This document shows positions 14,425-33,548 of a DNA stretch of 36,136 bases, piece after piece (the first letter of the stretch is position 1; every line of letters begins with the position of its first letter). The notes under the pieces are model-generated. The model saw only the letters and a program-made list of their open reading frames with translations. It was not told the DNA's origin and made no database searches. Made by a program: the position numbers and the translations under genes. The stretch is from assembly GCA_016745055.1 (NCBI GenBank), contig JADGDF010000025.1:1-36136 (forward strand). Direction: 5' to 3'. The stretch is from Thiotrichaceae bacterium. GTDB taxonomy: Bacteria; Pseudomonadota; Gammaproteobacteria; Beggiatoales; Beggiatoaceae.

Positions 14425-14484
14425 TATAATTCAATAGGTAATTATTCACAGTGACTACTTTTTTAAAATTTAATTTAATAAGGA
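14425..14484 (+). promoter_or_regulatory. Putative -10 and ribosome binding site for the RiPP operon
   Basis: TATAAT at 14425-14430 is a perfect -10 hexamer about 60 nt before the ATG at 14492, but I see no good -35 at the usual spacing, so an activator or an alternative sigma may be involved. AAGGA at 14480-14484, 7 nt before the ATG, fixes the start. Confidence 0.4.
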
Positions 14485-14491
14485 TATATTT

Positions 14492-15052
14492 ATGGCTGAT
14501 ATGAAAAAAACTCCTCTTGCTTTAGCTATTGGTACTGCATTCACCGTAAGTTTAGCACAAAGTCCTATTGTCAATGCTCAAGATAACCCATTTTCAATGA
14601 GCGAACTGTCAAGTGGTTATATGGTTGCTAGCGAAGGTAAATGCGGTGGTAGTATGGACGGTATGGATGGCAAAGACATGGAAGGTAAATGCGGCGAAGG
14701 CAAATGCGGTGGTGATAAAGCTCAAGCTGGCATGGATGGAAAAGGCATGGAAGGTAAGTGCGGCGAAGGCAAATGTGGTGGCGATAAAGCTCAAGCTGGC
14801 ATGGACGGTATGAGCAGCATGGATGGTAAAGGCATGGAAGGTAAATGCGGCGAGGGCAAATGCGGTGGTGATAAAGCTCAAGCTGGCATGGACGGTATGA
14901 GTAGTATGGATGGTAAAGGCATGGAAGGTAAATGCGGCGAGGGCAAATGTGGTGGTGATAAAGCTCAAGCTGGCATGGATGGTATGAGTAGTATGGATGG
15001 TAAAGGTATGGAAGGTAAATGTGGCGAAGGCAAATGCGGTGGTGATAAATAA
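14492..15052 (+). CDS. hvfA: RiPP metallophore precursor, HvfA/bufferin type, with eleven EGKCG motifs
   Basis: A 186-residue, exported precursor. Residues 1-29 form a signal peptide (KKTPLALAIGTAFTVSLAQS, probable cleavage after VNA). The NPFSMSELSSGYMVA segment (32-46) matches the conserved region before the core in HvfA/BufA precursors. The core is built from EGKCG pentapeptides: one at 48-52 and five EGKCGEGKCG doublets, at 64-73, 87-96, 116-125, 145-154 and 174-183. All eleven cysteines (51, 67, 72, 90, 95, 119, 124, 148, 153, 177, 182) lie in these motifs. Spacers are Met/Asp/Gly-rich (MDGMSSMDGKGM). In the Haemophilus HvfA system EGKCG cysteines are converted to copper-binding oxazolone-thioamide groups. 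It is followed at 50 nt by its modifying enzyme. The copper-binding function here is inferred from that family. Confidence 0.9.
   Translation: MADMKKTPLALAIGTAFTVSLAQSPIVNAQDNPFSMSELSSGYMVASEGKCGGSMDGMDGKDMEGKCGEGKCGGDKAQAGMDGKGMEGKCGEGKCGGDKAQAGMDGMSSMDGKGMEGKCGEGKCGGDKAQAGMDGMSSMDGKGMEGKCGEGKCGGDKAQAGMDGMSSMDGKGMEGKCGEGKCGGDK
14801..15049 (+). repeat. 87-nt tandem repeat inside hvfA
   Basis: Units start at 14801, 14888 and 14975; the last is cut short at 75 nt by the stop codon. Each codes for a 29-residue unit MDGMSS-MDGKGM-EGKCGEGKCG-GDKAQAG. Shorter relatives lie upstream at 14732-14800. The copies differ by only a few silent changes, showing recent duplication or conversion. Confidence 0.9.
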
Positions 15053-15102
15053 AAATTAGCCTCATGCCAAGTACATCATAAGACTCACAAGAGAACTTTG
15101 TT

Positions 15103-15948
15103 ATGAATTTTCCCGTACATGGTGCGGGACTTGGCTTCCGGCGAGACTTAACCGACTCGCTGGAGCAACAGTCCCCAAAACAAATTGATTTTATGGAAAT
15201 CGCCCCCGAAAATTGGGTTGGCCTAGGTGGGCGACTAGGCAAGCAGCTTCATTCCTTTACTGAGCGTTATCCATTTATTTGTCATGGTCTTTCTCTCAAT
15301 CTCGGTGGTTTTTCTCCCCTTGACGAATCCTTCTTGCAACGTTTAAAGCAATTTTTGGACACGCATAAGATTCGTTGTTACAGTGAACATCTAAGCTATT
15401 GCGGCGATGAAGGTCATTTGTACGATTTATTACCCATTCCTTTTACTGAGGAAGCCGTGTATCACGTTGCCAAACGTATTCAACGCGCTCAGGACATTCT
15501 TGAAAGACGCATGGCGATTGAAAATATTTCGTACTACGCAGCACCTGGCAAGCAAATGGACGAAATTGATTTTGTGAATGCGGTATTATCAGAAGCAGAC
15601 TGTGATTTACTGCTGGATGTCAATAATATTTACGTCAACAGTGTTAATCATAAGTATGATGCAGAAACCTACTTAAAAGCGTTACCTGCAGAGCGGATTG
15701 TTTATTGCCACATTGCAGGTCATTATAACGAAGCCGAAGATTTACTGATTGATACCCACGGTTCAGATGTGATTGATCCGGTTTGGCAGTTACTTGATGT
15801 GACTTATGAGCATTTCGGTGTAATTCCGACTTTATTAGAAAGAGATTTTAATATTCCGCCGCTTGCCAACTTACTGCAAGAAGTGGATGTCATTGCCTCA
15901 GCGCAAACCCGTTTTACGCCGGAAGAACATCATGCAAAAACTGCCTGA
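15103..15948 (+). CDS. hvfB: Multinuclear non-heme iron oxidase (DUF692), RiPP-modifying
   Basis: A 281-residue TIM-barrel enzyme of the DUF692/MNIO family (MbnB, HvfB, BufB). It opens GAGLGFRRDLTDSL and has IDFMEIAPENWVGLGG, HGLSLNLGG (His61), CYSEHLSYCG (Glu95, His96), MAIENISYYAAPG (Glu140), LLLDVNNIYVNSVNH (Asp172, Asn174), YCHIAGH (His203, His207), DTHGSDV (Asp217, His219) and TLLERDFNIP (Glu246); these are the candidate metal ligands and conserved residues. Such enzymes use a di- or tri-iron centre and oxygen to turn cysteine into oxazolone plus thioamide or related products. It lies between the precursor and the DUF2063 partner, which it overlaps by 17 nt. Its size is normal and nothing is missing. 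Confidence 0.93.
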   Translation: MNFPVHGAGLGFRRDLTDSLEQQSPKQIDFMEIAPENWVGLGGRLGKQLHSFTERYPFICHGLSLNLGGFSPLDESFLQRLKQFLDTHKIRCYSEHLSYCGDEGHLYDLLPIPFTEEAVYHVAKRIQRAQDILERRMAIENISYYAAPGKQMDEIDFVNAVLSEADCDLLLDVNNIYVNSVNHKYDAETYLKALPAERIVYCHIAGHYNEAEDLLIDTHGSDVIDPVWQLLDVTYEHFGVIPTLLERDFNIPPLANLLQEVDVIASAQTRFTPEEHHAKTA

Positions 15949-16693
15949 ATTTCAGCAACAACAACGGATATTCACCGCTTATATTCGTGATCCAGAAAAA
16001 AATCCTGCCCCTCAAAATATTGAACCACGCAGGATGGCCGCTTATCATGAATTGTTTTATAACAACGTCCAAGGTTTGTTAGCCCATACTTACCCTGTGT
16101 TGCATAAAATATTATCGGAAGAACAATGGCATCATCTAATTCGTGATTATTTTGCAGTTCATCAAGCGCACACGCCTTTGTTTCCCTACATGCCTCAAGA
16201 GTTTTTGCGTTACCTAGAAAATGAACGCGGTGAATACCCAAATGATCCTCCTTTTCTGTATGAATTAGCTCATTACGAATGGATAGAGTTGGCTGTTTCT
16301 ATTGATAATCGAGAAATTAATTTACAAGGCGTTAATAAAACTGGAGATTTATTAACGGGTCAGCCAGTGTTAAATCCATTAGTATTACCACTGATGTACC
16401 AATTTCCCGTTCATCAAATTCGTCCTGAATTTCAACCGCAGACTTTTTCTGAGCAACCCACTTATTTGTTGGTTTATCGTGATTTGTCAGATAAAGTTAG
16501 CTTTATTCATCTAAATGCAGTCAGCGCTTGGTTAGTTCAAAAGCTAAAAGAGAGTAACTATACAGGTAAAACAGCATTGGAAGAAATAGCCCAAGAATTA
16601 AACCATCCTCAACCTGAAGTGGTAATAACGGGCGGCTTGGCAATTTTACAAGCTTGGTTAAAACGTGATGTGGTATTAGGCGTTAAAATATAA
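15932..16693 (+). CDS. hvfC: DUF2063 partner of the MNIO enzyme
   Basis: A 253-residue protein of the DUF2063 family (HvfC/BufC), the usual partner that delivers the precursor's leader to the DUF692 enzyme. The N-terminal domain has LPEFQQQQRIFTAYIRDPE, RRMAAYHELFYNNVQGLLAH and TYPVLHKILSEEQW, a typical DUF2063 opening; the C-terminal half includes LLVYRDLSDKVSFIHLNAVSAWLVQ, a RiPP-recognition-like winged fold in this family. The ATG at 15932 has GGAAG about 7 nt upstream and overlaps the end of hvfB by 17 nt. A terminator follows, so the operon is just precursor, enzyme and partner, without the DoxX-type fourth gene found in some such clusters. Confidence 0.9.
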   Translation: MQKLPEFQQQQRIFTAYIRDPEKNPAPQNIEPRRMAAYHELFYNNVQGLLAHTYPVLHKILSEEQWHHLIRDYFAVHQAHTPLFPYMPQEFLRYLENERGEYPNDPPFLYELAHYEWIELAVSIDNREINLQGVNKTGDLLTGQPVLNPLVLPLMYQFPVHQIRPEFQPQTFSEQPTYLLVYRDLSDKVSFIHLNAVSAWLVQKLKESNYTGKTALEEIAQELNHPQPEVVITGGLAILQAWLKRDVVLGVKI

Positions 16694-16723
16694 TAACACT
16701 TGGACAGGCTAGATAGAATATAG

Positions 16724-16755
16724 CGAAACCCACAAATATATGAGTTTCGTTTTTT
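16724..16755 (+). terminator. Rho-independent terminator of the hvfABC operon
   Basis: CGAAACCCA and TGAGTTTCG pair (one mismatch) around an 8-nt loop, followed by a run of six T. The rest of the 285-nt gap to the sulfotransferase shows no coding or RNA signal. Confidence 0.7.
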
Positions 16756-20097: not shown

Positions 20098-20203
20098 TAC
20101 TTCCTTTTGGATAGAAATACAAAATATAATACCACTTTATTTAGTATTTGTGTGTAAGCTAAACTGCTCATAAAAATAAACATGGTTTTTACTGGTGATT
20201 ATC

Positions 20204-22123
20204 ATGCCATACGCTATTCGTAACTCACATATTCAACACCTGCCAACCCTAGTTGCCAATCAAATTGCCGCAGGTGAGGTTGTTGAACGTCCTGCCTCAG
20301 TTGTTAAAGAATTGCTAGAAAATAGTTTGGATGCAGGTGCCACAGAAGTTGAGATTGAGATTGAGAAAGGCGGCATTAATTTAATACGAGTAAGAGATAA
20401 CGGGTGTGGTATTCGTGTTAATGAATTAGCATTAGCATTGAATCGTCATACGACTAGCAAAATAAAATGCATTGAAGATTTAGAGAGTCTCAGCAGTCTA
20501 GGATTTCGGGGTGAAGCCTTAGCCAGTATTGCGGCCGTGGCGCGCTTGACTTTAATTTCGCATTTTCACGAAGCAAACACAGGCTACACGCTTCAAATTA
20601 ATGATATACAAGAAATGTCTGAACCTGTTCCCATTGCTAGTCCTGTCGGGACATGTATTGAAGTCCATGAATTATTTTACAATACACCCGCAAGACGTCG
20701 ATTTTTACGCACCCCACAAACAGAATTTAACCATATTCAAGAAACGGTTAAAAAATTGGCACTTAGCTGTTTTAATGTTGGATTTTCTTTGAAACACAAT
20801 CGTAAAGTGTTGACGAGCTTACCGCCAGCAACAACAGAAAGTTTGCAACAACAACGAATTGCAAAATTGTGTGGGCAGGAATTTCTTGAACATACATTGG
20901 ATGTACATGAAGATCGGGAAGCTCTGCAATTACATGGCTGGATTTCCATGCCTACTTATTCTCGTAGCCAAGCAAACATGCAATACTTCTTTCTCAATGG
21001 GCGTTTCATTCGGGATAAATTAATTAATCATGCGGTGAGGCAAGCTTATCGTGATGTACTTTATCGTGATCGCCATGCTTGTTATGTCCTATATCTAACT
21101 TTAGATCCAAAGTTAGTGGATGTAAATGTGCATCCCACCAAACATGAAGTCAGGTTTGCTGAAAGTGAGCAAGTACATCATTTTATCGTGGCAACTTTAC
21201 AACGTCATTTGGCAACCACGATGCCAAAAACTGAGGAAAATACCCAACCCCAATCAATTGTGGCAACTGAGCCTGAAAAAATAACCAAAAATACTGAATC
21301 TACGTTACCTTCTCTTACTTATCACATTCAGCCAAAGCCTACACGTTCTGCTGTACAAGAAACTTTGCAAACTTATCAAACACTTGCTGCACCAAACTCA
21401 TCAAAAATCACTGTGCCACAAGTTTCAAACGCTTTTGAATCTGAAAAAACTGAAAATTTTACTGAAAAAATCACTGTGCCACAAGTTTCAAACGCTTTTG
21501 AATCTGAAAAAACTGAAAATTTTACTGAAGCCATAATGCCACCTTTGGGATATGCATTGGGGCAACTTTTAGGTATCTACATTTTAGCTGAAAATAAAAA
21601 AGGTTTGGTATTAGTAGATATGCATGCAGCGCATGAAAGAATTACTTATGAACAATTAAAAGTTGTCTGGCAAACTAAAAAGAATAATGACGTTCAACAA
21701 TTGCTCGTGCCAGAAACCCTATCTCTCAATGATCAAGAAATAGCCACCGCAAAACAATATGAAACTTTTTTCAAAAGATTAGGTTTTAAATTTGATTTCT
21801 CAGATAAAAAACACCTTTTAATCCTTGAAGTCCCTAATGTACTGCAAAAAACAAATATTGGAACACTGGTTCAAGATGTATTAGCTGATTTAATTTATTT
21901 AGGTGTCAGTGATCGTATTGAGGAACAAATTTTAACCAAATTAGCGTCTATTGCTTGTCATCGCTCTGTTAGAGCGAATCACCAATTAAATTTGGCAGAA
22001 ATGAATAACTTATTGAGACAAATGGAACATACTGAGCGAAGCAACCAATGTAATCATGGACGTCCAACCTGGATACAATTAACTCAAAAAGAGTTAGATG
22101 CTTTGTTTATGCGAGGAAAATAG
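20204..22123 (+). CDS. mutL: DNA mismatch repair protein MutL, endonuclease type
   Basis: A 639-residue mismatch-repair protein. The N-terminal GHKL ATPase has IAAGEVVERPASVVKELLEN, DNGCGI, HTTSKI, GFRGEALASIAAV and the later VHPTKHEVRF. A low-complexity linker follows (about 350-445) holding a perfect 21-codon duplication. The C-terminal domain carries the metal-dependent endonuclease marks: DMHAAHERITYE (from about 472), ACHRSVRA, CNHGRP and terminal LFMRGK. This is the form in bacteria that lack MutH, where MutL itself nicks the new strand. ATG 20204 is favoured (GGTG upstream); GTG 20195 is an alternative. A terminator follows. Confidence 0.96.
   Translation: MPYAIRNSHIQHLPTLVANQIAAGEVVERPASVVKELLENSLDAGATEVEIEIEKGGINLIRVRDNGCGIRVNELALALNRHTTSKIKCIEDLESLSSLGFRGEALASIAAVARLTLISHFHEANTGYTLQINDIQEMSEPVPIASPVGTCIEVHELFYNTPARRRFLRTPQTEFNHIQETVKKLALSCFNVGFSLKHNRKVLTSLPPATTESLQQQRIAKLCGQEFLEHTLDVHEDREALQLHGWISMPTYSRSQANMQYFFLNGRFIRDKLINHAVRQAYRDVLYRDRHACYVLYLTLDPKLVDVNVHPTKHEVRFAESEQVHHFIVATLQRHLATTMPKTEENTQPQSIVATEPEKITKNTESTLPSLTYHIQPKPTRSAVQETLQTYQTLAAPNSSKITVPQVSNAFESEKTENFTEKITVPQVSNAFESEKTENFTEAIMPPLGYALGQLLGIYILAENKKGLVLVDMHAAHERITYEQLKVVWQTKKNNDVQQLLVPETLSLNDQEIATAKQYETFFKRLGFKFDFSDKKHLLILEVPNVLQKTNIGTLVQDVLADLIYLGVSDRIEEQILTKLASIACHRSVRANHQLNLAEMNNLLRQMEHTERSNQCNHGRPTWIQLTQKELDALFMRGK
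21403..21528 (+). repeat. Perfect 63-nt tandem duplication in mutL
   Basis: Two identical copies (21403-21465 and 21466-21528), each encoding KITVPQVSNAFESEKTENFTE-type 21-residue units in the linker. The reading frame is kept. Confidence 0.95.
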
Positions 22124-22950: not shown

Positions 22951-23050
22951 TTTTTTTGCCCACTCTACAATGGCAGTGACTCTAAGGTGTATGACGCTAT
23001 GCTTATACACCCTATATTGGTGCAGGATTTTTAAAAATAATAAAACAATT

Positions 23051-24682
23051 ATGAGTGCAATTTACGGCATTATTAATAGAAATCAACAGCCAATTTCTCC
23101 AGAAGTTCTGAAAACCATGATGGAAGCTGTCAGTTTTTATGGTACAGATGGTAGCAGAGTGTGGCAAGAAGGTACAGTTGCATTAGCTCACCAAATGCTG
23201 CACCACCCCAGAGTCGCTCCATGAAAAATTGCCAATGCAGTATTCTAATTTAATTATTACTGCTGATGCTCGCATTGATAATCGTGAGGATTTATTTAGC
23301 AATTTAAAAATAGCAAAAAATAGCAATATAACAGATAGCCAATTGATTTTACACGTTTATCAAAAATGGAGCATGGATTGTCCTTTCTACTTGTTAGGAG
23401 ATTATGCTTTTGTAGTTTGGGATGGGCAGCAATTGTTCTGTGTGCGAGATCATATTGGAACTAAACCGTTTTATTATTATGTGGATAGCAAACAATTTGT
23501 TTTTGCCAGTGATATACGGGCACTGTTGGCATACTTACCTCGTCCGCTTGATGAAGCTTATGCTGAGCAACTACGTGAATTGCTTCAGCAAGCTATCAAA
23601 GCTAGAATGCGTTCTGCATTTCCAATTGGTGCTCATTTAAGTGGCGGTTTAGATTCTTCTTCAATAGCAGTCTTGGCTGCCCGTCAAAGTCAGTCACTAC
23701 AAGCTTATTCTTGGTCACTGCCTCCACAGCCAGAAGACTGTCCACTTACAGATGAACGGGCTGAAATAGAAAAAATTTGTGCCCAAGAACCTAATATTCA
23801 GATGCATTACACTTCCTTAGACCCAGAAGAACAATTTGCTATATTTAAGCGTGATCCCAGTTGCGAACCAACAGCAGACCTATTAATAGAAAATACCTTA
23901 TGTCGCAATGCAGCACAGCATGGTCAAAGAACATTGCTTTCTGGCTGGGGTAGTGATGAAGTGGCTGCTTTTAATGGGCGTGGCTATTTTGCAGAATTGT
24001 TTGTGAAAGGATATTGGCATACGCTTTATCAGGAAGGCAAACAACGTAGCCAAGCATTTGATGAATATTTATTTAATGTGTTAATAAATAGGATTATTTC
24101 ACCTTTACTGCCCAATGTGATTTATTGGCATTGGTGGAAAAACCTATCACGTTTTCCAAATTGTCTGATTCCTGAATTTAGAGAGCGTATGCAGCAAATT
24201 TCCCCAATAACTAAACAGCGTATTCGAGAGTTACCGAGTGTACGGTGCAACCAATTACTACTCTTACACAATGGTCATATCACCAGACGCCTTGAAGATT
24301 GGGCAATTAATGGAGCCATGCACCGTGTTGTCTATGGTTATCCCTTATTAGATCGACGTATTTTAGATTTTTGTCTTAGCATTCCGCCCAGCCAATTTTT
24401 TAAAAAGGGTTGGAAACGGTTTCTGTATCGCAATGCTATGACTGGCATTTTACCCGTTCAGGTACAATGGAAAAATTTAAACATGAACCAGCTTTAGAAG
24501 CACGTAACAAAGCTAATTTCAGAACCAACTTTGTTCAAATTTTGGAATCACCAATACTGGAAGGAAGGTATGTTGATTTTGCCTGTCTCCACAAATTGCT
24601 CGCAGCCAAAAAAGATAAACTGAAACAGAAAGCTAAAATAAGAAAATTATTGACCCTTGAAAACATTTGCCAAAATAAATGA
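23051..24682 (+). pseudogene. Asparagine-synthetase-like (lasso cyclase-type) gene with two frameshifts
   Basis: Three frames together give one asparagine-synthetase-B-type protein. Part 1 (from ATG 23051, MSAIYGIINRN) ends at a TGA at 23222; part 2 continues in the next frame as HEKLPMQYSNLIITADARID, DHIGTKPFYY, the ATP site LSGGLDSSSIAVLAA and SGWGSDE; part 3 resumes after an A5 run at 24471-24475 as KFKHEPALEARNKANF to a TGA at 24682. Each break is cured by adding one base. Position 2 is Ser, not the catalytic Cys of the glutaminase, as in lasso-peptide cyclases (McjC type), which close a macrolactam using ATP. The next gene is an ABC exporter 7 nt downstream. Recent decay, slippage or sequencing error are all possible. 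Confidence 0.8.
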
Positions 24683-24689
24683 TCAAAAT

Positions 24690-26471
24690 ATGTTGCGAAG
24701 CTATATAAAAGTATTGATTGACTATGCTGGTTGGCAAATGGCACTAGCACTTGGTTTATTAATTTTGATAGGACTAATGGAAGGCATTGGGTTATTGATG
24801 TTAGTGCCTTTCCTCCATTTGGTTGGTTTTGCCCCAGAAGGTAGTGCCCCTACCGGCATTATCACAATAGCTAATCAACTATTTGAAATGATTAATCTAC
24901 CTCTAACTTTACCAACCGTTTTATGCCTATATATTGGTCTCATTTCTTTTCAAGCCTTTTTAGTCCGGTGGCGCGAGGTGCTGCTCACTGAGATACGCCT
25001 CGGTTTTGTCGATCATTTGCGAATCCGATTGTATAATGCTATAGGTCAAGCTAATTGGCTATTTTTATTAAGAAAACGTAGTTCCGATCTTACCCACGTC
25101 TTAACTTCGGACATCAATCGAGTAGGGCAAGGGACTTACTTTTTCCTGACTATTATTGTATCCGGATTTGTAGCCTTAATTCATATTATGGTCGCCCTTC
25201 AACTCTCAGCAATTATGACCATTATCGCCTTGTTAACTGGTGGTTTGCTGTTGTTAATTTTATGGCCGCAAATAAATCGTGCTAGAATCTTGGGAGAAAC
25301 ATTAACTAGTGCTAATCGGGAAGTATTTGGGACAGTTTCTGAGTTTTTGGATGGCATTAAGTTGGCGAAAAGCTACGGAGCTGAAGCACATTATAGCCAA
25401 ACTTTTACCGAGATGATTGTAAACTTACGTCAACAAATGCTGGATTTTACCCGCAGCAATTCTTGGGTTGGTATGATTTATCAGATCGGTGCCGCTATGA
25501 CACTCAGCGGTTTGCTTTATATTGCGGCAGTAATATTGCGCCTTCCCGTTGCAAAATTGCTAGTTTTTATCTTAGTTTTTGCCCGTTTATTGCCAATGTT
25601 ATCAAGATTGCAGCAAAGCTATCAACAGCTTGTTCATATGCTACCGGCCTTTGCTGTCACAATGGAAATGCAGGAATATTGCGAGGCAGAAGCAGAACCT
25701 ATTTTGATAGATAACAGTTGGACACCCTGCCTAAATCAGGAAATTAGACTCCAAAATATCCATTTTCGCTATGATAAACAAGGCGATAAGCAAGTTTTAT
25801 CCGATCTAAATTTAATTATTGCGGCACAGCAAACAACGGCTATCATCGGCTCATCTGGCGCTGGTAAAAGCACGCTAGCAGACTTATTAATAGGTTTATT
25901 AATACCAGATGCCGGTGAAATTTTAGTGGATGGACAATTACTTAAACCACAACTAATCCGTAATTGGCGAAAAAGCGTTGCTTATGTACCACAAGAAACT
26001 TTTTTATTTCATGATACAATACAAGCTAATTTGCGCTGGACACACCCGCAAGTTACTGACGAAGAACTGTGGCAAATTTTGCGTTTGGCTGCGGCAGATA
26101 AATTTATAGCTGAATTACCAGATGGTTTTGATACCGTAGTTGGTGATCGAGGAATACGCCTGTCTGGAGGGGAACGCCAACGCATTGCCCTAGCACGCGC
26201 TCTATTATGCAAGCCATCACTATTAATTCTTGATGAAGCCACTAGTGCCCTAGATACTGAGCATGAACGCCGCATTCAACAGGCAATTGATTCCTTACAT
26301 GGTGAACTCACTATCGTAGTGATTGCACACCGACTTTCAACCGTGCGTCATGCCGATAACATAGCGGTGATGGAAAATGGTCAAATTGTAGAAATGGGAA
26401 GTTGGGAAGAATTAGAAACTCGTAAAGAAGGACGATTTCGCACTTTATTACAAGCAACGGCTATTGGCTAA
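24690..26471 (+). CDS. ABC exporter, fused permease and ATPase (peptide exporter type)
   Basis: A 593-residue half transporter. The first 330 residues hold about six membrane helices, beginning GWQMALALGLLILIGLMEGIG. The ATPase domain has Walker A GSSGAGKST, Q-loop VPQETFLFHD, signature LSGGERQR, Walker B LLILDEATSALD and H-loop IAHRLSTV. It lacks a C39 peptidase domain. The architecture is that of McjD-like and lipid/peptide exporters, and the gene directly follows the cyclase-like pseudogene, so export of a modified peptide is the best guess. The ATG at 24690 lies 7 nt after the upstream stop. The gene is intact although its neighbour is broken. Confidence 0.88.
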   Translation: MLRSYIKVLIDYAGWQMALALGLLILIGLMEGIGLLMLVPFLHLVGFAPEGSAPTGIITIANQLFEMINLPLTLPTVLCLYIGLISFQAFLVRWREVLLTEIRLGFVDHLRIRLYNAIGQANWLFLLRKRSSDLTHVLTSDINRVGQGTYFFLTIIVSGFVALIHIMVALQLSAIMTIIALLTGGLLLLILWPQINRARILGETLTSANREVFGTVSEFLDGIKLAKSYGAEAHYSQTFTEMIVNLRQQMLDFTRSNSWVGMIYQIGAAMTLSGLLYIAAVILRLPVAKLLVFILVFARLLPMLSRLQQSYQQLVHMLPAFAVTMEMQEYCEAEAEPILIDNSWTPCLNQEIRLQNIHFRYDKQGDKQVLSDLNLIIAAQQTTAIIGSSGAGKSTLADLLIGLLIPDAGEILVDGQLLKPQLIRNWRKSVAYVPQETFLFHDTIQANLRWTHPQVTDEELWQILRLAAADKFIAELPDGFDTVVGDRGIRLSGGERQRIALARALLCKPSLLILDEATSALDTEHERRIQQAIDSLHGELTIVVIAHRLSTVRHADNIAVMENGQIVEMGSWEELETRKEGRFRTLLQATAIG

Positions 26472-26504
26472 AAGTGTTGTACTAACCATTTAAAGAAACT
26501 CACT

Positions 26505-27872
26505 ATGCTTTCAACAACATCAATTAAAAAACCAAATGTCCAATACTTCTGGACTATAGTATTGTTAGTTATTGGATTTTCTATTTTCCTAAAATTGCCG
26601 ACTTTTACTTTTGGTATTGAACATATGAAAGGCAAGCATTTTGAAGGCGATGAGATACGTTTTTGGTATTTGGCTAAAAATTGGGCTACAATCGGACATT
26701 ATACATTACAAGGTTCACCTCTGTTTGAAAACTTTCCTTTCTATGAACCTTATTATGCTTATCGCAAAATGCCCGTGCACCCACCCTTATTTATAGTATT
26801 ACTTCGTCCTTTTGTCCAATATGAGTTTACTCACTATGAAAAAATCCCCCAAGGTCTTGGTCCTGATGCGGTTAGAGCAATTTACGCAAAAATTGCCCCC
26901 AATTATGCTGTTATAGCTTCTTGGGTTGGCCATTTGCTGGCCATTTTAGCCGTTGCTTTAATTGGTAGATATTTGCTCATTTACCATAAATTATCTTTGT
27001 CAGCGCTATCACCTTTATTTTGGTTACCATTATTAGGGGTTGCTACTGATCCAATTATGACTTGGGTATCAACTAAGATTTGGATTGACAATTTACATGC
27101 TGGTTTAGCAGCTTTGGCAGTGGCATTTACTATGATAGCGAGTAGTTCACGACATTCCCAAATAACATATATTTTAGCAGGTATTATGCTTGGTTTGGCG
27201 TTGCTGGCTAAAATCACTGCCATGATGATCATACCAATTATTATTTTCATTATCTTTGTGCATGAAATTGAGTCCAGAAAACGTATGCAAGCTCTCTTAT
27301 TTGGCATTATACCTGTATTAATTTTAGCTTCACCTTGGTATATACCGCGTTACTTGCCCAAAATTGTGGAAATCTCTGCAATACCTAACCCATACGCAGG
27401 AACATGCGAATTTTGTAAAACCACTAACACCAGACCATTTTACTATTTTTTACTAAAATTACCTTTAATAGCACCACTTGTAATTGTAGGATTAAGTTTT
27501 TACATTATATTATTTTTTAATTATGTCAAGAAATTGGCAATACTTGATAATTTGCGCTTCTTTATACCAGCGGTATGGTGCTTGTTTATCTTAATGATAA
27601 TCACCCTTTATCTATCATTTTTTAATGGTTCGTTCATCATGCGCCGCATAACTTTGTTAATACCGAGTTTATATGTCATGTTTTATATGTTGATTATTTA
27701 CTCAGAAAAATTTAGACCACTAAGAAAATATCAACAACTTTTGCTTTTTTTGGGAGGTATCAGTATAGTTTACGGTAGTATCAGTGGAGGTTTTTACTTG
27801 TTCCATGGCATTAGTTTTGCCGAATTTTTCAGTTTTGCCGAATTAACTGGTATGATTAAACTATGGAATTAA
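26505..27872 (+). CDS. GT-C glycosyltransferase (GT39/ArnT-like), membrane
   Basis: A 455-residue integral membrane protein with about ten hydrophobic segments. The first loop has HFEGDEIRFWYLAKNW, whose Asp-Glu pair fits the catalytic acid of GT-C enzymes, followed by KMPVHPPLFIVLLRPF, a PMT/ArnT-like segment. The C-terminal half has FIMRRITLLIPSLYVMF. Such enzymes move a sugar from a polyprenyl-phosphate donor to an acceptor on the periplasmic face. It follows the ABC exporter by 33 nt on the same strand, so it may belong to the same transcript. The acceptor is unknown. Confidence 0.75.
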   Translation: MLSTTSIKKPNVQYFWTIVLLVIGFSIFLKLPTFTFGIEHMKGKHFEGDEIRFWYLAKNWATIGHYTLQGSPLFENFPFYEPYYAYRKMPVHPPLFIVLLRPFVQYEFTHYEKIPQGLGPDAVRAIYAKIAPNYAVIASWVGHLLAILAVALIGRYLLIYHKLSLSALSPLFWLPLLGVATDPIMTWVSTKIWIDNLHAGLAALAVAFTMIASSSRHSQITYILAGIMLGLALLAKITAMMIIPIIIFIIFVHEIESRKRMQALLFGIIPVLILASPWYIPRYLPKIVEISAIPNPYAGTCEFCKTTNTRPFYYFLLKLPLIAPLVIVGLSFYIILFFNYVKKLAILDNLRFFIPAVWCLFILMIITLYLSFFNGSFIMRRITLLIPSLYVMFYMLIIYSEKFRPLRKYQQLLLFLGGISIVYGSISGGFYLFHGISFAEFFSFAELTGMIKLWN

Positions 27873-27881
27873 AGTAAAAAA

Positions 27882-28958
27882 CTACAATTTTCTAAGTAAC
27901 TGCCATTGTTTTAAATACCATGATGGCTGTAGTAATTTCAAGAGCACTTTTGGAGAAGTCAACAAATAACTCAAAGAATCTACAAAATAGCCTTTTAAGT
28001 TTAATAATTTAGCAAACCACGGATAACGCATACGATATTGAAAACGCTGATAATCACGCATTGCTGATGCTGTAAATGGTATCTCATCAGGCAAGGACTG
28101 AGCTAGAAGCTTATAAGCCATCGTCACATAACTATGAAATAATTTAGCTTTACCGTGTTGTTTAAAATGGGCAGCTAACCTTTGCCAATCCAATTGTTTC
28201 TCTAATGATTTACGCAACATAGCAAATTCATAAAGCTGCATTAAATTGATTGTTGCCATACTATAATTTGCATCCATCATATATGTGTGGATGATATTAT
28301 GTTGGATTCGATGCTGTGGTGAGGGTACTCTCACCTTGATATCACTAAATGACAAAGGTTGCGCATTATGCCAAACTTCTGTGGTTGGCAATATTTGAGT
28401 ACCAATTCTCACCATACGCGGATGTAATTCCAGAGAAGCGATAGAACCCTCACAAACTAATGGAACATATTGGTGGTGATAAGTAGCATAAGTATAGCCA
28501 GCGAGTGATTTATAACCAAGCTTTTCTAAAGCTGTTACTGATATCATCAGCTTATCTTCTGGTATCAATAAATCAATATCAGTCATCATGCGAATACCAA
28601 CATCCGCATAAACACCGGTTATTAAACTGGCAACACCTTTCATCAATAGCGGTTCAATACCCACTTGATTAAGTTGCATTACTATATTACACAGTTGAGC
28701 AAGAATTTTTTGATTTCTGTCTCGATTAGCTTCCAACATCATTTCCAAAAAAGTTATCAATCCATTATCTGGCAGTGCATCTAGCAAGCCTTTTTTAGAT
28801 AATGTCCAATACAACGCTGGTGTTACTAGGTGTTGACTAGATAGCTTAATAACTTTTTCCCACCTAATTTCTGTTTGAAACTGTTTCTGGAGAGCTTCAC
28901 GATTGTCTTCAAAAGCAAGACAACGACAAACTAATTGAAAAGTATCTAACTCATTCAT
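27882..28958 (-). CDS. Uncharacterised nucleotidyltransferase (PF14907-like)
   Basis: A 358-residue protein resembling the uncharacterised nucleotidyltransferase family found in lasso-peptide and polysaccharide loci. The core is LLMKGVASLITGVYADVGIRMMTDIDLLIPEDKL (positions roughly 100-133), with a KG start and the metal-binding D-x-D in MTDIDLL; LELHPRM follows. N-terminal helices (EIRWEKVIKLSSQHLVTPALYWTL) are typical of the family. It is convergent with the glycosyltransferase, only 9 nt apart. Its role in a peptide pathway is inferred from company in related clusters, not from its sequence. Confidence 0.75.
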   Translation of the reverse strand: MNELDTFQLVCRCLAFEDNREALQKQFQTEIRWEKVIKLSSQHLVTPALYWTLSKKGLLDALPDNGLITFLEMMLEANRDRNQKILAQLCNIVMQLNQVGIEPLLMKGVASLITGVYADVGIRMMTDIDLLIPEDKLMISVTALEKLGYKSLAGYTYATYHHQYVPLVCEGSIASLELHPRMVRIGTQILPTTEVWHNAQPLSFSDIKVRVPSPQHRIQHNIIHTYMMDANYSMATINLMQLYEFAMLRKSLEKQLDWQRLAAHFKQHGKAKLFHSYVTMAYKLLAQSLPDEIPFTASAMRDYQRFQYRMRYPWFAKLLNLKGYFVDSLSYLLTSPKVLLKLLQPSWYLKQWQLLRKL

Positions 28959-31238: not shown

Positions 31239-33548
31239 ATGGAAATGGTTCACTTAGGGTGGGTCATGCTATGTGCCGTGTTGGTGATCCTCATGCAAGC
31301 AGGTTTTATGTGCCTTGAGAGTGGATTAACACGCAGTAAAAATAGTATTAACGTAGCAATAAAAAATCTAGCTGATTTTAGTGTATCCATCGTATTATTT
31401 TGGTTATTGGGTTACGCATTGATGTTTGGCGATTCTTGGCTGGGTTGGTTAGGCATCAGCGGATTTATGTTTGAAGCCAACCAAGCAACGCCACAATACA
31501 ACGTTTTTTTCCTATTTCAAACAGTGTTTTGTGGTACGGCTGTCACTATTATTTCTGGGGCTGTAGCTGAACGTATGCGTTTTCAGGCCTACTTACTGGT
31601 TACCGTGTTGGTTTCTGGTTTTATTTACCCAATTTTTGGTCATTGGTCTTGGAATGGTGCGAATGTTGGTCAATTTACAGGATGGTTAGGTGAATTAGGT
31701 TTTGTTGATTTTGCCGGTTCCACTGTGGTTCACAGTATAGGAGGATGGGTTTCGTTGGCAGTTGTCATTATTATTGGCCCAAGAATTGGCCGCTTTCCAA
31801 AAAACAAAAATCAGGCTGCTCGGGAAATTCCTGGCCATAGCTTACCTATTGCAATATTAGGTGTATGGCTGTTATGGATTGGTTGGTTTGGCTTTAATGG
31901 TGGTAGTTTTCTATCTTTAGAACAAGGTATTGGAGGGGTGTTACTTAATACTTTACTAGGGGGTGCAGGGGGTATGTTTGCTGGCATGTTGATGAGCTGG
32001 TATCAACAACGGCAAATTGAGGTAAAAACTTTAATAAACACTTGCTTAGCGGGTTTAGTTGCTATTACTGCGGGTTGTCATCTATACTCTTCCGCTTCAG
32101 CATTAGTTGTTGGGGGCATTGGTGGTGTGATCATGCAATTAACCCAAACCCGTATTTTACTATGGCGCATTGATGATGCAGTCAGTGCATTTTCAGTCCA
32201 TGCAGCAGCTGGTGTCTGGGGAACACTCGCAGTGGCTTTATTTGCGCCTTCAGGTAGTTTTGGGCCAGGCATTGGTATGTTAGAACAATTTTCTATCCAA
32301 CTATTGGGTGTCACTGTTTGTGCAGTATGGTCTTTTGGCACTGCTTATTTTGCTCTACAACATATCAATAAATATTATCCATTGCGTATTACTCGTAAGC
32401 AGGAACAACAAGGTCTTAATGTCAGCGAACATGGGGTACACACAGAATTTGCAGAGTTGATCGATACCATGAAAGTACAAGCTGCAACGGGAGATGCAAG
32501 TTTACGGGTATATGCTGAACCCTTTTCTGAAGCCAGCCCTATTGCTCATCACTACAATCAAGTACTGGATAAATTAGGTAGAGAAACTGAAAATGCCCAA
32601 CAAATGGCTAATGTAGCACAACAAGCCCGCCAACAATTGGAATCTACCCATGTAGAATTGCAATCTCAGTACAACGAATTATTAGTTACAAAACAATTGG
32701 CCAGTTCACATGCGCAAGAAATCGACAAGCTGCAAGAACTCAGTGCAGCCTTGAATGAAGCAAAAGAAGAAGCGGAACAGGCGAATTTACATAAAAGCCG
32801 CTTTATTGCCAATATGAGTCATGAACTTCGTACCCCTTTGAATGCTATTATTGGTTATAGCGAAATCCTGAAAGAAGAAGCTGAAGATTTAGGCGAAAAT
32901 AGCATGGTTGGGGATTTGAAAAAAATCAGGGCTGCAGGTAACCATTTATTAGGTTTAATCAACGATATTTTAGATTTATCCAAGCTAGAAGCCGGTAAAA
33001 TGACTTTGTACTTGGAATGGTTTCACGTTGAACATTTATTGCGTGAGGTTAGCTCTACCATTCAACCGCTAATGGATAAAAATGCTAATCATTATGACTT
33101 ACAAATTGAGACTAAGCCTGGAAAAATTTACTCAGATTTAACCAAATTACGTCAAATTTTGTTCAACTTGCTCAGTAATTCCGCTAAGTTTACTGAAGAA
33201 GGGACAATTCGTTTGCGGGTTGAAAGATGTAACTTTGAAACTCAAGATGAATGGTTAATTATCGAAATTGTTGATACTGGGATTGGTATGACAGAAGAGC
33301 AACAGTCTAAGCTATTCAGTGCCTTTACTCAAGCTGATGCCTCTACAACTCGCAAATATGGTGGAACTGGATTAGGGTTAACCATTACTAAGAAATTTGT
33401 ACATTTGCTTGGCGGGGATATTCAAGTCCAAAGTATTGAAGGCCAAGGGAGTTGTTTTACCGTTCGATTACCCGTAGAAACACCTGCACCACCACTGGCT
33501 GGATCTATTGAAATTAAACATCACTCTGAGATGGTAGCAGCGGTTTAA
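31239..33548 (+). CDS. Ammonium transporter-histidine kinase fusion
   Basis: A 769-residue membrane sensor. Residues 1 to about 380 are a complete Amt/Mep/Rh domain: [22 protein letters not shown] at the first helices, FGHWSWN, the pore histidines His165 ([10 protein letters not shown]) and His321 ([11 protein letters not shown]), and [10 protein letters not shown]. Residues about 385-515 form a helical, glutamine-rich linker with coiled-coil character. The kinase follows: H-box [23 protein letters not shown] with phosphorylatable His528, N-box [10 protein letters not shown]1 DTGIGM and G2 GGTGLGL. No receiver domain is attached and no response regulator gene lies nearby. Amt-kinase fusions are known (for example Amt5 of Kuenenia) as ammonium sensors. 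The start has AAGGAG upstream; sigma54/NtrC-like sites precede it. Confidence 0.93.

Follow-up and report, generated by a model that had tools for sequence, protein, structure and literature searches.

An hvfABC-type operon with eleven EGKCG motifs in a Thiotrichaceae bacterium is a fairly long member of the captophorin family

A short operon from a Thiotrichaceae bacterium encodes a peptide precursor with eleven EGKCG motifs, most of them in directly adjacent pairs. This raises the question of whether the system is unusually expanded, with a metal-binding geometry of its own, as the original prediction had it, or belongs within the normal range of a described family. We analyzed the 36,136-nucleotide stretch of DNA that carries the operon (the window) and compared its genes with those of relatives and of published systems. 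We conclude that the operon was correctly read, that it is intact, and that it represents an ordinary, if rather long, example of an already known, very large family.

Operon layout and precursor repeats

The precursor gene, hvfA (14492 to 15052, + strand), encodes 186 aa that include a candidate Sec-type signal peptide, a conserved NPFSMSELSSGYMVA leader, and 11 EGKCG motifs. It is preceded by a likely ribosome-binding site, AAGGA, read directly from the sequence at 14480 to 14484 (+). Profile matches identified the following genes on the same strand as hvfB (15103 to 15948), encoding a 281-aa MNIO (DUF692, PF05114) that is the predicted 5-thiooxazole-forming enzyme, and hvfC (15932 to 16693), encoding a 253-aa DUF2063 / NGO1945 C-terminal-domain partner protein (PME1, RRE). 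All three open reading frames (ORFs) are intact. As originally described, hvfB and the DUF2063 gene follow the precursor in tight coupling, with a 50-bp gap between hvfA and hvfB and a 17-nt overlap between hvfB and hvfC, which starts with the ATG at 15932. A probable intrinsic terminator, judged from its position, lies at 16724 to 16755 (+), and the end coordinate first given for the operon, 16755, is the end of its hairpin and T6 tract (TTTTTT). Terminator-like sites were not above the shuffled expectation in number, and a sigma-70 scan found promoters to be no more numerous than in shuffles.

Translation of 14492 to 15052 (+) bore out the predicted motif content exactly. EGKCG starts at residues 48, 64, 69, 87, 92, 116, 121, 145, 150, 174, and 179; ten of the eleven motifs form five EGKCGEGKCG doublets (beginning at residues 64, 87, 116, 145, and 174), one motif is single, and each of the 11 cysteines lies within an EGKCG. 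The lone first motif (residues 48 to 52) occupies 14633 to 14647 (+), and the first doublet (residues 64 to 73), which was also found by exact pattern match, occupies 14681 to 14710 (+). Three tandem 87-bp units at 14750 to 15010 (+) encode 29-residue units, from residues 87, 116, and 145, that are identical in protein (EGKCGEGKCGGDKAQAGMDGMSSMDGKGM), and translation and repeat comparison place the last doublet (EGKCGEGKCGGDK) at 15011 to 15049 (+). Tandem Repeats Finder reported an 87-bp period in this gene, with 3.7 copies and 94% matches. The three full units differ at 8 nucleotide sites, and 8/8 differences are synonymous, compared with an expected synonymous share of 18% for random single changes in the 87-bp unit (p about 1e-6), so the repeat is genuine coding sequence under selection.

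The precursor N terminus has a charged start, a hydrophobic stretch, and a VNA-Q site recognized by eye, together with a leader motif common to relatives; leader residues P33 and F34 were invariant in a 30-sequence alignment. AlphaFold2 predicted disorder both for this precursor (mean pLDDT, 49) and for a Pseudoalteromonas control with 17-residue repeats (mean pLDDT, 43), and these models lend no support to the published beta-helix or to a special geometry. Elsewhere in the window, mutL (20195 to 22123) carries a perfect in-frame 63-bp tandem duplication at 21403 to 21529 (2 copies, 100%), which lengthens the linker ahead of the C-terminal dimerization domain by 21 residues.

Family membership and closest known systems

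The HvfA/oxazolin family now goes by the name captophorins, and the operon has the features of this type: a repeated EGKCG precursor, an adjoining HvfB MNIO carrying Lys-Cys-group residues, and a DUF2063 HvfC/PME1 protein. The precursor matched the NCBIfam domain model KCGExKCG_twice (NF050137) with 69 bits (cut-off, 19.5). Its 75.4 bits to the full-length HvfA equivalog, NF050188, fall under a cut-off of 95 that belongs to a narrow curated model and is not a published defining feature of captophorins. HvfB scored 448.5 bits against NCBIfam NF003818 (cut-off, 360) and 358 bits against PF05114, and its alignment with 3bww, a Histophilus MNIO of solved structure, runs along its length (262 bits) and retains the ERDF motif as well as the conserved His/Glu/Asp segments. 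In FonB, the preference for Lys-Cys substrates is set by two Arg close to the N terminus and by the Asp-Phe of the ERDF motif (PMC13097082); R13-R14 and D248-F249 of HvfB correspond to FonB R15/R16 and D249/F250, paired by motif only. HvfC scored 300 bits against NCBIfam NF050145 (cut-off, 142), was matched by PF09836 and PF22106, and showed a weak match of 26 bits to 3dee (NgoC).

Other assignments were rejected. For a bufferin (BufABC), the score to NF050167 was 277.6 bits, below the cut-off of 310, and the operon has neither DUF2282 nor a 6/12-Cys precursor domain; for a methanobactin, the MbnB-type MNIO model TIGR04159 gave 41 bits against a cut-off of 325. A type-2 (EF-hand) EGKCG precursor was set aside, as no Pfam domain was found in the precursor. 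The genome search returned one MNIO gene, one DUF2063 gene, and one DoxX gene; the operon itself has no DoxX gene, and the one copy located by the search lies away from it on contig 13. Across the order, the same 9 of 43 genomes hold both over-cut-off HvfB matches and EGKCG-repeat matches.

Among characterized systems, the oxazolin operon (HvfABC) of Haemophilus influenzae likewise combines a signal-peptide precursor bearing AEGKCGEGKCG pairs with an HvfB MNIO and HvfC. Its HvfA has three AEGKCGEGKCG and six cysteines, whereas the window precursor has eleven (PMC13419390), and the window operon, unlike that of H. influenzae, is without a linked DoxX (HvfX) gene. Fontiphorin (FonABC) from Fontimonas thermophila shares the minimal three-gene layout without DoxX, the EGKCG repeats, and the Lys-Cys-type MNIO residues, but has seven sites rather than eleven and other spacers (PMC13097082). 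Type-1 precursors of the Buf_EGKCG/oxazolin group also vary in repeat number, with two EGKCG in each repeat and up to 58 Cys, although their repeat is of 17 residues and that of the window is of 29 residues with a Met-rich spacer (PMC12452194). Bulbicupramide (MmrABC) from Microbulbifer resembles the window in its repeated two-Cys cassettes; MmrA has three of these, compared with five doublets and one single motif here (PMC12538549). Each MmrA cysteine is modified, and Cu(I) is bound by a product of one cassette, 12 residues long and carrying two thiooxazoles (PMC12538549).

Frequency of pairing and of eleven or more motifs

A family survey had been set beforehand as the test that could refute the claims of unusual expansion and paired geometry. 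We sought relatives with the degenerate DNA of the doublet in a one-genome-per-species collection. An earlier scan had found none, because its patterns were taken from the precursor start and from lineage-specific spacers; a plasmid tblastn search with the precursor also gave no match, possibly owing to low-complexity filtering. Among the matches listed, the exact doublet occurs in at least 79 of the 369 class genomes. The same matches yielded 141 distinct complete doublet-bearing precursors, a set that was selected for doublets and includes the window's own precursor: 13 of the 141 carry at least 11 EGKCG, 19 have at least five doublets, and the largest number of motifs is 15. A second sample, free of selection for doublets, comprised precursors chosen by HvfB neighborhood across the class. 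An ORF with at least two KCG was present at 38 of the 50 HvfB loci examined, giving 37 complete precursors, of which 28 contain one or more adjacent pairs and 3 have at least 11 KCG (median, 6). Published EGKCG precursors, with two EGKCG per 17-residue repeat, reach 506 residues and 58 Cys (PMC12452194).

Based on these counts and the published precursors, adjacent pairing is the norm of the family, and eleven sites lie in the upper part of its normal range, with precursors of eleven or more forming a regular minority of about 8 to 9%. The survey thus went against the original prediction fully on pairing, which is commonplace, and only in part on number. The term "unusually expanded" does not hold, and pairs of motifs are canonical rather than a distinct geometry, as seen in the KCGExKCG_twice domain, H. 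influenzae HvfA, the MmrA cassettes, and the Cu(I)-binding 12-mer.

Some relatives depart from the simple repeat plan. Four precursors have EGKCG motifs on both sides of a long EGKCG-free insert, which contains EF-hand-like DxDGDG in three of them (L085, L160, and L173) and is Met-rich in the fourth (L009); these precursors mix both published precursor types. An EGKCG precursor with EF-hand-like sequence was also found on an IMG/VR contig (L143:11399-11845), directly past viral tail and lysis-like genes. No MNIO was recognized by eye among the ORFs listed near it, and this stretch probably belongs to the host, at the border of a prophage.

Predicted chemistry and the roles of doublets and spacers

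Very likely, the locus represents a minimal but complete hvfABC (captophorin/oxazolin) operon, and its product should be a copper-binding modified peptide from a family that has been described before. The predicted multi-site copper-binding RiPP is therefore retained as the most probable reading, without its two novelty claims. The oxazolone-thioamide chemistry that was proposed for it is outdated; two groups have revised the product to a 5-thiooxazole (PMC13097082, PMC13419390). The same core genes are found in the experimentally characterized FonA, HvfA, NgoA, and MmrA systems, for which a mass change of about -4 Da for each Cys has been reported, along with copper binding (PMC13097082, PMC13419390, PMC12538549).

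By analogy with these characterized relatives, HvfC would hold the unprocessed precursor and present it to HvfB, and in HvfA the signal peptide appears to act as the leader for recognition (PMC13419390). HvfB, a putative mixed-valent di-iron MNIO, would then convert the Lys-Cys of each EGKCG to a 5-thiooxazole by a four-electron oxidation with loss of four hydrogens, working site after site along the precursor up to eleven times. Sec would export the peptide, the signal peptide would be removed, and the mature chain would bind Cu(I) in the periplasm through thiooxazole thiolate groups, with the doublet as a natural small chelating unit. A copper-buffering role would follow the same analogy, and a copper-protective role has been doubted for the Microbulbifer system (PMC12538549). 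The repeat number has probably risen by tandem duplication of the 87-bp unit, with purifying selection on the protein sequence. It is very improbable that the precursor instead stays unmodified, as a Cys/Met/Asp-rich metal-binding protein or the remnant of a decaying operon: the lack of a DoxX partner in the operon would fit such a reading, but the three intact ORFs, the hvfB/hvfC overlap, and the synonymous-only repeat differences all speak against it.

The doublet itself might be set by the enzyme, if HvfBC works efficiently only on two adjoining motifs, in which case the pairing would imply no special copper chemistry. In vitro, FonBC acted on a substrate with two repeats but left a one-repeat substrate unmodified, and turnover was sensitive to Glu6, which lies between the motifs (PMC13097082). 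However, isolated motifs occur in many precursors, including that of the window, and an MmrA cassette in which either Cys had been mutated still received one modification (PMC12538549); Cu(I) binding by the two-Cys 12-mer also leaves room for a role in metal binding (PMC12538549). We regard this account as plausible but somewhat doubtful.

The spacers allow a further variant, in which their methionines add thioether Cu(I) ligands and so create two kinds of binding site. Doublets in the window precursor are spaced by 23, 29, 29, and 29 residues, compared with a commonest spacing of 15 to 17 (141 precursors, matches listed), and the 139-residue repeat region contains 17 Met (12.2%), against a median of 0.8% in the 141 doublet-bearing precursors among the matches listed. 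Met above 10% recurs in 8 of the 37 HvfB-neighbor precursors (the window included), from different genera and at up to 20%, so that Met-rich spacers unique to this operon are ruled out. The spacer protein was also kept between repeats while the DNA drifted, but this conservation may stem from young duplication. Most family members lack spacer Met, as do most relatives in the same order (e.g., L002, L003, and L004), and we found no metal data for Met-rich members. A hybrid site is unlikely, and we read the Met-rich spacers as recurrent spacer variation. It is likewise unlikely that a subset of captophorins including this one would form a mixed thioether/thiooxazole Cu(I) store whose capacity or exchange differs from that of Met-free members. 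With three 29-residue units of the same protein sequence, the precursor lends itself to studying how a single MNIO works through many sites on one peptide and whether the Met-rich spacers play a part.

Other genes of the window include a second candidate peptide locus at 22970 to 28958. An asparagine-synthase-like gene there has lasso-peptide cyclases as its nearest match (319 bits to NF033535; cut-off, 525). It seems to be broken into two ORFs around 23224, and an ABC exporter comes after it, with a PF14907 nucleotidyltransferase on the opposite strand. No lasso precursor or protease was recognized in this region, which is possibly a degraded lasso-type RiPP cluster. Further downstream, a single ORF of 769 aa (31239 to 33548) encodes an ammonium transporter (Amt) fused to a histidine kinase.
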